A stretch of 46,533 nt of DNA from Candidatus Geothermarchaeota archaeon (GTDB taxonomy: Archaea; Thermoproteota; Nitrososphaeria; Geothermarchaeales; JDFR-13): NCBI GenBank assembly GCA_015523725.1, contig WAJV01000087.1:1-46533 (forward strand). The letters run 5' to 3'. Each line of letters begins with the position of its first letter. Position 1 is the stretch's first letter. The notes under the pieces are model-generated. The model had not been told where the DNA came from, did no database searches, and saw only the letters and a program-made list of their open reading frames with translations. The translations under genes were made by a program, and so were the position numbers. This document shows, in pieces, positions 1,261 through 6,397 of this stretch.

Positions 1261-2427
1261 TTAGACACGTTCAGCAGCCAACTCATCAAACAAATCTATA
1301 AACATATCCTTCTCACCATATGGTATGACCGCCGAACCCTTATCGGCATAGCCATAACCCAATCCACCAACAGTAAATGCAGCGGCCTCGACCAGAGCCG
1401 AGACCGGCTGCCTACGCCCCAAAGATATTCTCAAGGAGAGAGACTTCGAAGTCCTAACAGCAACATTAATCCAATCCCTCGGGAGATATCCATATCCAGG
1501 AATATAAGGATTCCTCTCACACAAGCCAAGTAAGTATCTCGTCCTATCATATAACCTAACTTGGTAACTCAAGTAACTAGTGAAGCTATCAAACACACGA
1601 GTACTTACATTGTAAAACCAATTATTATAATCCTCAAACCAATTTATAGAGCCCTTCTCACTAACCCCCTCAACCTCAATAAATTCAAGCATATCCCTAA
1701 ATAAACGTTTCCTAACCTCCCTATACCTATTAGAACGATCAATGATGAAACGGTTATCACCATCAATCAGCACCTGAAATAAATCCAGATAGCTGTCTTG
1801 ATAATAACCTACGGAGGAAATTAAGGTCACCTCCTTATATAATCTCCTATAATCTTTATTAAATCCACTATAAGCAATCTTAATCGAATCACCCTTCTTA
1901 ACAACGACGCCATATTTAATGGCTTCATACATAATCCTCCAATTCAATCCAGATGGATAATTCGGTGACTCACCATAACCAAGCACAGCCAACCAAGACC
2001 ATCTCCTAAACCTATCACGGTCAAATTCCCTACATAATAAGTAAGCTAATATGGATGAAGATGGAGACTCATCCTCTCCAAATCCTAAATCAACTGGATT
2101 GATATACATCAAATCCTCAGGAGGCCTTATAGACTCGGAATGATGATCAATAATTAATACATTATCCAATCTCCTCATATACTTATAGAAAGCACCACCC
2201 AAATCACTAAATACCACCAAATCATATCCCTGATCCTCAATATCCCTAAGTATATCTGGATAAACCTTATCTAAACATATGAATCCATACTCAATACCCA
2301 ACTGATCATATAAAAGTTTCAATAAAAGAGCTGAAGCTAATCCATCTCCATCATCACTAAATAGAGTCAATATGTACTTAGACTTAACAATTCTATCCAA
2401 AGCCTTAGACACACCATCCATTAACAT
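1261..2427 (-). CDS. DHH-family phosphoesterase, RecJ/GAN/Cdc45-like
   Basis: Motifs LFSDDGDGLASALLLKLL, VVFSDLGG and VLIIDHHSE. The ORF runs to 2514, but an internal start near 2427 avoids overlap with polB. Confidence 0.8.
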   Translation of the reverse strand: MLMDGVSKALDRIVKSKYILTLFSDDGDGLASALLLKLLYDQLGIEYGFICLDKVYPDILRDIEDQGYDLVVFSDLGGAFYKYMRRLDNVLIIDHHSESIRPPEDLMYINPVDLGFGEDESPSSSILAYLLCREFDRDRFRRWSWLAVLGYGESPNYPSGLNWRIMYEAIKYGVVVKKGDSIKIAYSGFNKDYRRLYKEVTLISSVGYYQDSYLDLFQVLIDGDNRFIIDRSNRYREVRKRLFRDMLEFIEVEGVSEKGSINWFEDYNNWFYNVSTRVFDSFTSYLSYQVRLYDRTRYLLGLCERNPYIPGYGYLPRDWINVAVRTSKSLSLRISLGRRQPVSALVEAAAFTVGGLGYGYADKGSAVIPYGEKDMFIDLFDELAAERV

Positions 2428-2449
2428 AGAGACATTATCCAAAACACAT

Positions 2450-4825
2450 TCACCTAAAAAACCTATCCAACCCCGTGCCAACAGCCTCTGCAATAGAAAA
2501 CAAAACCTTATCACTAACCCCTATAGGCTCCAACACCCTAGCAACAACTGGTAAAAGCTGATTCTTAATATAATATTCCTTATCAACCACCTCTGGAGTA
2601 GCATCTAAATAATGGACAGCCCTCTTATATAGAGGGCCCTCACCCTTAACGATAACATAACCAATAAACATACCCTTCCTAATCCTCCACCCCCTACTAC
2701 TCAATAACCTAGCAACAGCTATATGAGGGGCATTAGCCTTATATTCACTCAAATCCCGAGTTATCTGCTCCCAAATAACAACCTCATCAATACTGAAATC
2801 CCCAGACCTAACCCTATTAACCACATCCCTAAACTCATCCAACAACCTATTCCTAGAAGCCCCCTCTAACAATAGTTTTAAAACCCTATACTGTAGAGCC
2901 CTAGCCAACTCACACCAATCCCTCCTAACATACTCTAGGCCTACAATATCGATCTTATCATCTACAGTCAAACCTGCATACCTCTTCTTAGCCTCAGTAA
3001 ACAATACACGTCTATACAACTTATCTATCTTAGCCTCCATACCCAAAGAAGAATTAATCCAATCCAAAAACTCCCTAACCTTATCCTCATCATACCCAAT
3101 AAAAACACTATCCGTATCACCATAAACAATATTCAACCCCAATTCCCTGGCCTTCTCAATACTCTCCTTAATAATCCTCCTACCCAAAAAAGTTATTAGA
3201 GAAGCTCCCTCAAACGAATACCACCTAGCCCCAAGCCAACCCATATAACCATACATCGTATTAGCAAGAATCTTTAGTATCCTCTGCTTAGAATCCAATA
3301 TCCTATACATTGGCGATTCCCTAGATATACTCCTCATCAATCTCCTAACTTCATCCCTCTCCCTAACCAAATTCTCCACTATATCCGGCAAGATCCCCCT
3401 AACATCCCTCCTAACGCCAACACCCAATTCACTGAAAAACTCTACACCCTCACCAGCCTCCTTAACAATAGTGTCTGGAGAAACATTATACTTCATTATA
3501 ATTGATGGATACATACTCTTAAAATCAATGACAGCGATATTCTCATGCAGACCCTTCTTAGGCGTCAACACAAGCCCCCCAGGATAACTCCTGGCCCTCC
3601 TACCCAAAACCTTGGGAACCAACTCGCCACGCTTCCTACTCATCTTAATAATATAATGCTCGGCCTGCCTACCCGATGAAGCAGTCAATACATAATCAGG
3701 AGGAATACCAGTAACACTCGACAATCCAAATATCTGATCAATCAACTCCCAAAAAACAGCGTAAATAGCCCTAACCCTCCATTTAACATAATTAATCAAA
3801 TAATCACGATTCCTCTCCCAATAAAGCGGATAACCAAAGACATCGATAGACTTTTCGGGGTAATCAATACCAACATAACCAGCCAATTCCTCCAAAGTCT
3901 TCCTCTCAAAAATCGGGTTATCATCCACATACTCTTTCAAATCAATATTAATCCTTCCAAAGAATGAGAAGTGGCCATAAAGACTCTGATGAATCTCCTG
4001 ACCACCCATACCCAATCCAATACCAATCCCCAACCGCTTCCCACGAGCCAATAGATAAGGCCATATAAACGAATTACCAGCAAAAGAAACGACAACATTA
4101 GGATTTAACCTAGAAAAATCGCGGTTCAAGGCTTTAATAAGCTCTAAATCCCCTCTATCTCCCAAATATTCATAATAGTCATTACCATCATAAAGAACAA
4201 TATAGTTAATAGGGTCCCTCTTAGGATCGGGTTCACCCAACTTAGAAACAACCACCATATCAATAGCCAACACCTTAAGAGGCGGATAACCCAAGTCGGT
4301 ATCTAAAGGTTCTAGACCCTTCAAACTAAATATTTTAATACCCGAGTAAACCCCAACATCGATGGCATTAACCCTATACCAAGTACAGGGAGAAACTTGA
4401 TTATCAACCATATATTTAATAGTATCCCTAATATCATCCTCAAATAAATTCTCCTCGCCAAGCCTACGCCTCAATACATCCCTAATACGCCTCAATACTT
4501 CAGCATCACCAGATACCCTATATAAAACCACATCCTTACCAAATAATTTCCTAACTACCTCATCCACCATTACTCCAGGAAACTCTCTAACCACCTCACC
4601 GATAACCTTTTCAGAACCTTGTTTCTTCAAAACGAAGAAATAGTCATCAAAATGACTATTCAACTCAACCACATTCCCTTCACTATCGAGACCGAGTAAA
4701 CAAATATTCTCCCCACTAGAACCAGTATATAATGGGTGTGCAACATCAAATATCCATATATTTTCAACCGCCATACTAGAAGAATTATTATCTACTCGAC
4801 ATATAAAATATTTATTAGGAGCCAT
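2450..4825 (-). CDS. Family B DNA polymerase with degenerate exonuclease motifs
   Basis: Pol motifs VIDFKSMYPSIIMKYNVSPDT (A), KQRILKILANTMYGYMGW (B), YGDTDSVF (C), plus KKRYAGL and EYVRRDW. 791 aa. Confidence 0.95.
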   Translation of the reverse strand: MAPNKYFICRVDNNSSSMAVENIWIFDVAHPLYTGSSGENICLLGLDSEGNVVELNSHFDDYFFVLKKQGSEKVIGEVVREFPGVMVDEVVRKLFGKDVVLYRVSGDAEVLRRIRDVLRRRLGEENLFEDDIRDTIKYMVDNQVSPCTWYRVNAIDVGVYSGIKIFSLKGLEPLDTDLGYPPLKVLAIDMVVVSKLGEPDPKRDPINYIVLYDGNDYYEYLGDRGDLELIKALNRDFSRLNPNVVVSFAGNSFIWPYLLARGKRLGIGIGLGMGGQEIHQSLYGHFSFFGRINIDLKEYVDDNPIFERKTLEELAGYVGIDYPEKSIDVFGYPLYWERNRDYLINYVKWRVRAIYAVFWELIDQIFGLSSVTGIPPDYVLTASSGRQAEHYIIKMSRKRGELVPKVLGRRARSYPGGLVLTPKKGLHENIAVIDFKSMYPSIIMKYNVSPDTIVKEAGEGVEFFSELGVGVRRDVRGILPDIVENLVRERDEVRRLMRSISRESPMYRILDSKQRILKILANTMYGYMGWLGARWYSFEGASLITFLGRRIIKESIEKARELGLNIVYGDTDSVFIGYDEDKVREFLDWINSSLGMEAKIDKLYRRVLFTEAKKRYAGLTVDDKIDIVGLEYVRRDWCELARALQYRVLKLLLEGASRNRLLDEFRDVVNRVRSGDFSIDEVVIWEQITRDLSEYKANAPHIAVARLLSSRGWRIRKGMFIGYVIVKGEGPLYKRAVHYLDATPEVVDKEYYIKNQLLPVVARVLEPIGVSDKVLFSIAEAVGTGLDRFFR

Positions 4826-4864
4826 GCCGATTATGTTATAACATCGTTAACGATGGTGTATATA

Positions 4865-5539
4865 ATGAGTAATGGACTACTATCTGAAGAAGATAAGAAA
4901 ATAATAATGAGTGACTACTGGTCCAGACTCGAAGATAACGTAAAACTAATCTATATAAATAAGAAGGACACCTCAAACTGTCAATACTGCGACATAATTA
5001 AACAACTCTACACCGAATTAACAGGTATGAGTGAAAAATTAAGCCTAGAGGAATACTTCTATGAGGAACTAGATAATGAATTAATTGATAGATTTAAGAT
5101 AAAATCAGCACCAGTCGTAATAATTCAAGGAAAAAACAAAGGTCTAATAAAGTTTTACGGAATCCCATCCGGAATGGAGTTCCCCAGCTTCATAGAAACA
5201 ATAGTAAAAGCCTCAAAAGGAGAGACAGATCTACCAGAAGAAATAATAAATGAAGTTACAAACATAGAGAAAGACGTAAACATAAAAGTATTCGTAACAC
5301 CCACATGCCCCTACTGCCCAAAAATGGTCTCAACAAGCTATATGTTCGCCATGCTAAATGAAAAAATAGATGCAGAGGCATGGGAGTCCATAGAATTCCC
5401 AGATATAGCAAGAGACTATGGAGTACACGCCGTACCAAAGGTCGTAATAAATGATGAAGTTTCGTGGGAGGGGATGGTCCCACCAGACTACCTACTACAC
5501 AACATATACCACGCAATAGGACATGAACACGAGCACTAG
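4865..5539 (+). CDS. Protein disulfide oxidoreductase (tandem thioredoxin/glutaredoxin-like)
   Basis: Two CXXC sites (NCQYC and CPYC) in two thioredoxin-fold halves; VFVTPTCPYCPKMV; VHAVPKVVIND. Start taken at MSNGLL. Confidence 0.87.
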   Translation: MSNGLLSEEDKKIIMSDYWSRLEDNVKLIYINKKDTSNCQYCDIIKQLYTELTGMSEKLSLEEYFYEELDNELIDRFKIKSAPVVIIQGKNKGLIKFYGIPSGMEFPSFIETIVKASKGETDLPEEIINEVTNIEKDVNIKVFVTPTCPYCPKMVSTSYMFAMLNEKIDAEAWESIEFPDIARDYGVHAVPKVVINDEVSWEGMVPPDYLLHNIYHAIGHEHEH

Positions 5540-5545
5540 TTAAAT

Positions 5546-6397
5546 ATGGCTAGAAGAATAATAAGGGAATTAGCAGCCAAGATATTCAAAGGAGAATCCT
5601 ATAGAATATTGAATAGCATAGATATAATTGGAGACATAGCTATAATAAAAGCTGAAGAAATAGATGAAAAAGCCCTAAACATATTTGGGGAAGCCCTTAT
5701 AAAAGAATTAAAGTACATAAAAACAGTATTGAGGCAAATAACCCCAGTAAGTGGGGAATATAGAATAAGAAGATTCAAATATATAGCTGGTGAAGACAAG
5801 AGAGAAACAATATATAAAGAACATGGCATAAGGATAAAGGTAGATGTCGAGAAAGTATACTTCACCCCAAGACTATCAACCGAGAGAAAAAGAATAATGG
5901 AGCAAGTATCCCAGGGAGAATCAGTCTGCAACATGTTCGCCGGAGCGGGACCCTACACAATCCTAATCGCGAAATATAGAAACCCAAGGATAGTTCATAG
6001 CATAGACATAAATAAATATGCAATAGACTATCACCTCGAGAATAACTATCTAAACAAATTTGAGGACAAAATAATTCTATATAGAGGGGATGCTGCACAA
6101 ATGGTTGAGAAGTATATAGTAAATAAAGTGGATAGGGTATTAATGCCATTACCGGAAAAAGCACTTACCTACCTAGAATACGCATTAAAGGCATTGAAAG
6201 ACACAGGATATATCCACATATATTTACATGTAAAATATAGCCAAGACTGGAGAGAATCACTAGTAAAAGCGTCAGAAATAGTTAGAAATACATTAACGGA
6301 AAAATGTAAAATAATTAGTTTAACCCCTCATAAAGTAAGGGAAGTAGGGCCTAGGACAATGCAGGTATGCGTAGACACATATATTAAAAAACTTTAA
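5546..6397 (+). CDS. tRNA (guanine-N1)-methyltransferase, Trm5 family
   Basis: Class I SAM motif VCNMFAGAGPYTILIA, SIDINKYAIDYHLENNYLN, RVLMPLPEKALTYLEYAL. Confidence 0.85.
   Translation: MARRIIRELAAKIFKGESYRILNSIDIIGDIAIIKAEEIDEKALNIFGEALIKELKYIKTVLRQITPVSGEYRIRRFKYIAGEDKRETIYKEHGIRIKVDVEKVYFTPRLSTERKRIMEQVSQGESVCNMFAGAGPYTILIAKYRNPRIVHSIDINKYAIDYHLENNYLNKFEDKIILYRGDAAQMVEKYIVNKVDRVLMPLPEKALTYLEYALKALKDTGYIHIYLHVKYSQDWRESLVKASEIVRNTLTEKCKIISLTPHKVREVGPRTMQVCVDTYIKKL

Follow-up and report, generated by a model that had tools for sequence, protein, structure and literature searches.

We found that the family B DNA polymerase encoded in the window (the whole stretch of DNA analysed, 46,533 nucleotides of a Candidatus Geothermarchaeota MAG of 1.43 Mb that is 72.7% complete) is an exonuclease-inactivated PolB3 and the only PolB3 of its organism, and that the loss is not peculiar to this genome and is common to a large part of the Thermoproteota. 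The features on which the analysis rests are as follows.

1261..2514, minus strand, DHH-family phosphoesterase (RecJ/GAN-like), directly downstream of polB3 on the same strand
2450..4825, minus strand, PolB3-family DNA polymerase, 791 aa as listed and stop-free (Pfam, 5mdn match, tree)
2453..2473, minus strand, GLDRFFR, PIP-box-like C-terminus, similar in orthologs (sequence and alignment)
3107..3124, minus strand, motif C YGDTDS (residues 568-573), intact
3497..3526, minus strand, motif A DFKSMYPSII (residues 434-443), intact
3776..3778, minus strand, R350 in place of the catalytic Asp of ExoIII (alignment)
4064..4066, minus strand, I254 in place of the catalytic Asp of ExoII (alignment)
4253..4261, minus strand, ExoI, D189-M190-V191 against D-I-E (alignment)
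4643..4645, minus strand, D61 at the Pro36 position of the uracil read-ahead pocket (alignment)
4736..4738, minus strand, H30 at the Tyr7 position of the same pocket (alignment)

The reading frame matched Pfam DNA_pol_B (1.9e-66) and DNA_pol_B_exo1 (6.5e-12), and the closest solved structure, 5mdn, PolB3 of Pyrobaculum calidifontis, aligned over the full length (4.7e-153). Homologs begin at about residue 18, and therefore the true start is probably M18 at 4774. In a tree of PolB1, PolB2 and PolB3, where 24 PolB3 rows together with PDB 4k8z (a Thermococcales-type PolB) and the P. calidifontis enzyme formed one side of a branch, the protein was placed inside PolB3 with a support of 100/97. Its motif B (KILANTMYG) and KKRY motif (AKKRYAG) are intact, as are motifs A and C, so that both tree position and motifs A, B and C are those of PolB3. 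The exonuclease carboxylates are usual in characterised PolB3 and, like the uracil pocket, which is a functional trait, are not a phylogenetic criterion; the window protein has neither of these traits in full. PolB2 is marked by an altered motif C in which the first Asp is missing, and both the intact YGDTDS and the tree exclude that assignment.

Only two genomes in the phylum sample of 397 gave two PolB3 matches. Since PolB3 is nearly always single-copy, the window gene is the resident PolB3 with its proofreading removed and not a spare copy, and the word paralog, used in the first-pass annotation, is misleading, there being no exo-intact PolB3 beside it. The same annotation had called the protein the reverse of PolB2; it is indeed not a PolB2, but PolB2 can no longer be regarded simply as a degraded polymerase, because an active Dpo2 is known (PMC8764526). 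The source genome encodes three family B polymerases: the window PolB3; on contig C107, a PolB1 with intact exonuclease motifs; and on contig C34, a divergent PolB2-like protein with HAIVDS where YGDTDS is expected. Exonuclease motifs of PolB1 were likewise intact in all the relatives checked.

The exonuclease motifs were assigned by aligning the sequence, directly and through a profile, with proteins whose structures are known. Alignment to 5mdn and to a profile built from the exonuclease domains of exo-intact PolB3 (E 1e-53, top posterior confidence at ExoI, ExoII and ExoIII) was confident and gap-free at the motifs, and left one of the four DEDD carboxylates, D189 alone. In ExoI the Asp is kept and V191 occupies the Glu position; in ExoII (FAGNSFIWPYL) the segment N-S-F-I254 aligns with N-x-F-D; and in ExoIII Y346-V-K-W-R350 aligns with Y346-x-x-x-D. 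An earlier alignment by eye, which had described the loss of the ExoI Glu, the change of the ExoII Asp to Ile, the loss of the ExoIII Asp and the intact polymerase motifs A and C, was thus correct at every motif, and the proofreading deficiency proposed from it is the natural prediction from the missing carboxylates. The ExoI Glu, ExoII Asp and ExoIII Asp were lost in all 17 class orthologs (10 in the window's family; three family codes), whose amino acid identity to the window protein reaches as low as 37%. Because identical columns are affected in 17 of 17, the loss exceeds what chance or sequencing error would give, and we regard the absence of these carboxylates from the aligned sequence as certain.

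PolB3 was found in 226 of the 397 sampled Thermoproteota genomes (E 1e-60 or better). Among 84 PolB3 examined, a non-random sample including 5mdn and skewed to relatives of the window (all class orthologs, the loci most like the window, and places added for family coverage), 55 had lost at least one carboxylate and 29 kept all four. In these 55 exo-dead proteins the ExoI Glu and ExoIII Asp were nearly always the lost residues, and the replacements varied by lineage (ExoI E to V/I/F/T; ExoII D to I/V/F/H/Q/W/Y; ExoIII D to R/K/N), as expected of relaxed sites. The polymerase active-site motifs were intact in all sampled orthologs. On a polymerase-domain tree with a distant outgroup, the exonuclease state needs 3 changes; when the outgroup, the longest branches and one locus (L102) were removed, the exo-dead rows lay on one side of a single branch with a support of 97. 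These trees indicate that the loss is ancient and occurred in one to about four events. Two loci, L102 and L174, keep ExoI (FDVE), have lost ExoII and ExoIII, and are nested among exo-intact PolB3; L102, which comes from a MAG with 9% contamination (G424), looks like a separate and recent loss.

The uracil and hypoxanthine read-ahead pocket of archaeal PolB consists of Tyr7, Pro36 and Tyr37 (PMC8596578). In the window protein the first two positions carry H30 and D61, and the Tyr37 equivalent is kept as Y62. All three residues were present in 28 of the 28 exo-intact PolB3 covering them vs 7 of 55 exo-dead proteins, and in none of the 10 members of the window's family; these counts are phylogenetically non-independent, as no pocket difference was seen in the one or two independent pairs that differ in exonuclease state. 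The decay of the pocket suggests that this PolB3 may no longer avoid damaged template.

Taken with the intact polymerase motifs, these features lead us to lean, if not strongly, towards a polymerase that is active but does not proofread and that would fill gaps or tolerate damage, as an analogue of Pol zeta or PolB2. In that case PolB3 would be catalytically competent, its 3'-5' exonuclease having been inactivated long ago, and the exonuclease domain would be retained as a structural or DNA-binding scaffold. Having no proofreading, the enzyme would be expected to continue synthesis from primer ends that are mismatched or damaged; lacking, in this family, key residues of the uracil pocket as well, it would be expected to copy deaminated templates at which the usual archaeal PolB stalls. 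Accurate bulk replication would be left to the exo-intact PolB1, and to PolD where present, and PolB3 together with PCNA, for which the GLDRFFR tail is a predicted contact, would serve gap-filling, repair or translesion synthesis in a manner functionally like that of Pol zeta or PolB2. Enzymatic activity, PCNA binding and biological role are all predictions in this account, and the finding that no known damage-response gene is linked to polB3 counts against its damage-tolerance part. A wider reading is more tentative and, in our judgment, somewhat doubtful: that in much of the Thermoproteota outside the exo-intact clade PolB3 may be non-proofreading class-wide and often uracil-blind, with damage tolerance by it replacing the Y-family, which would make it an ancient, conserved and independently derived archaeal counterpart of Pol zeta.

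The main rival is a replication polymerase that shares labour with PolB1 in the manner of Pol alpha, extending primers or making short lagging-strand stretches, whose own proofreading would be dispensable because PolB1 or PolD would correct the stretches it makes or replace them. A primer-extending role fits the identical sequence features, and the intact polymerase motifs, PIP-like C-terminus and single-copy state throughout the window's family agree with it. PMC7544198 links PolB3 of euryarchaea and Sulfolobus to replication. The distribution of PolD also points this way: the large subunit (DP2) was found in 41 of 45 genomes with an exo-dead PolB3 vs 2 of 23 with an exo-intact one (21 of 23 thus without PolD), absences in genomes below 90% completeness being set aside. 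This association is strong but confounded, as it rests on one or two independent pairs on the tree and ancestry accounts for most of it. For the same reason, the proposal that PolD permits exonuclease loss was not taken as causal. Moreover, two class members (G017 and G020) have an exo-dead PolB3 without PolD, and the decay of the pocket suggests that damaged template is no longer avoided, which is unfavourable to the replication role. We consider that role rather unlikely.

Several details of PolD concern individual genomes. DP2 is present in most of the window's family (G003-G008 and G010), and three MAGs of the genus (G000, G001 and G002; 73-74% complete) have neither DP2 nor DP1, which could mean that the genus has truly lost PolD or that the MAGs are incomplete. 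In G003 the genes for DP1 and DP2 are separated by about 5 kb, and for this reason the two absences in the genus are not independent. G017, a single contig of 99% completeness in family f6, has a DP1-like protein (C1:1514-1900) and no DP2 (PF03833), together with a PolB1 and an exo-dead PolB3; it resembles the Nitrososphaeria group with an inactivated DP1 and no DP2 mentioned in PMC7544198. The DP2 matches in G014, G026 and G416 are very divergent (E 1e-10 to 1e-14; relatives 1e-90 or better).

A Y-family polymerase was found in none of the 11 genomes of the window's family, and in the class it was found in 0 of 17 genomes with PolB3 vs 9 of the 15 tested without PolB3 (Fisher p 1.8e-4). This distribution was counted in favour of the damage-tolerance reading. 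Across the phylum, the Y-family is mostly absent from exo-dead and exo-intact PolB3 genomes alike, indicating that its absence tracks PolB3 rather than exonuclease loss. The idea that an exo-dead PolB3 explains the missing Y-family is thus true within the class and fails across the phylum. These absences partly reflect incomplete MAGs, that of the window included, and all the correlations with exonuclease state rest on few independent events.

A split polymerase and exonuclease is the arrangement of PolD and of bacterial Pol III, and the DHH-family gene downstream of polB3 could in principle provide proofreading in trans. Its Pfam DHH match (1.1e-5) is just below the curated cut-off, and it matches the RecJ/GAN-type structures PDB 7bhi (8.7e-15) and 5x4h (1.7e-13); its true start is probably near 2445. 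The gene adjoins polB3 in every member of the window's family with enough flank and in several other exo-dead families; the adjacency was seen in families f1, f6, f3, f35 and f47 and in one f27 genome, and the gene is nearby in others. Among archaeal RecJ2-type proteins there are 3'-5' exonucleases (PMC5615345). However, it also adjoins exo-intact PolB3 (L146, L151 and L157) and is missing beside many exo-dead ones, which indicates that it is probably an old neighbour and not a replacement proofreader. In addition, the DHH protein of the window's family (L004-L013) has a GYGY-type sequence for the GGGH of DHHA1 and has lost the first His of motif I, while keeping the DHH (DDH in two) and D-x-DG motifs; its orthologs in f3 and f6 keep both the DHHA1 His and the motif I His. 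Compensation by this protein, improbable on these grounds, was rejected as a specific explanation. The protein of the window's family has possibly drifted from a nuclease in a Cdc45-like manner.

Where dN/dS could be estimated, it was 0.04-0.14 for the polymerase domain and 0.04-0.22 for the exonuclease domain, and well below 1 in all domains, indicating that the inactive exonuclease fold is retained under purifying selection. In most exo-dead pairs the exonuclease domain evolves at a higher rate than the polymerase domain, and the N-terminal domain is faster too, as might be expected of a decaying or purely structural protein that no longer functions as a polymerase; the strong constraint on the polymerase domain, with active-site motifs intact in every sampled ortholog, makes this very improbable. 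An exonuclease still active through carboxylates at shifted positions is the least probable reading of all, given the confident and gap-free alignment at all motifs and the lineage-dependent replacements, even though D189 is kept in many members and the structure prediction (five sequences; mean pLDDT 40, pTM 0.30) is too poor to use.

The window protein shares family, polymerase motifs, domain order and PIP-like tail with archaeal PolB3 (5mdn, Pfu/KOD PolB and Aeropyrum pernix PolB3), and differs in lacking three of the four exonuclease carboxylates and in having His and Asp for Tyr7 and Pro36 of the pocket. Sulfolobus Dpo1, an archaeal PolB1, is also of family B, and the PolB1 that coexists in the source genome has intact exonuclease motifs, unlike the window PolB3. 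Dpo2 of S. islandicus has no exonuclease activity and serves as an active extender during translesion synthesis (PMC8764526); the window protein is predicted to share its lack of exonuclease activity and probably a specialised role, whereas PolB2 has an altered motif C and a separate branch, and a PolB2-like protein is encoded separately in the source genome. In Pol alpha and Pol zeta the exonuclease domain is inactivated (PMC7544198). Like Pol zeta (Rev3), the window protein is a family B enzyme with an inactivated exonuclease domain, a presumably active polymerase and a proposed use in damage tolerance, but it has no visible zinc/FeS C-terminal domain or known accessory subunits and is not a member of that group. 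Pol alpha, which also keeps an inactivated exonuclease fold beside an active polymerase (presumed for the window protein), is the second most likely functional analogue; it differs in that the window PolB3 has no sign of primase association, and no primase gene was recognised next to polB3.

In the literature PolB3 ranks as the most widely distributed archaeal PolB, and reviews regard it as an exo-competent enzyme of replication or repair. Competence is reported for S. solfataricus Dpo3 (PMC8764526) and for A. pernix PolB3, which is weak in spite of its conserved motifs (PMC5911459). Exonuclease loss is described for PolB2, Pol alpha and Pol zeta by Rogozin 2008 (PMC2527604), Makarova 2014 (PMC4104785) and Kazlauskas 2020 (PMC7544198), and the accessible parts of these three articles, supplements aside, make no mention of an exo-inactivated PolB3. 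Literature searches for PolB3, or for DNA polymerase B with exonuclease, in Bathyarchaeota/Bathyarchaeia gave no matches, and the widespread exo-dead pattern was not found described in the literature searched, supplements and subscription papers aside. If a large part of the phylum relies on a PolB3 that is exo-dead and often uracil-blind, models that assign a polymerase to each strand in such archaea would have to be revised, and eukaryotic B polymerases without exonuclease would have a parallel case. Thermostable, naturally exo-free polymerases without uracil stalling might also be useful reagents.

Upstream of polB3 and divergent from it lie a thioredoxin/glutaredoxin-like gene (4736-5539, plus strand; Thioredoxin_3, 4.1e-22), whose true start is probably near 4865 because its orthologs begin with MSN, and then a methyltransferase-like gene (5546-6397, plus strand); the pair is kept in most members of the window's family.
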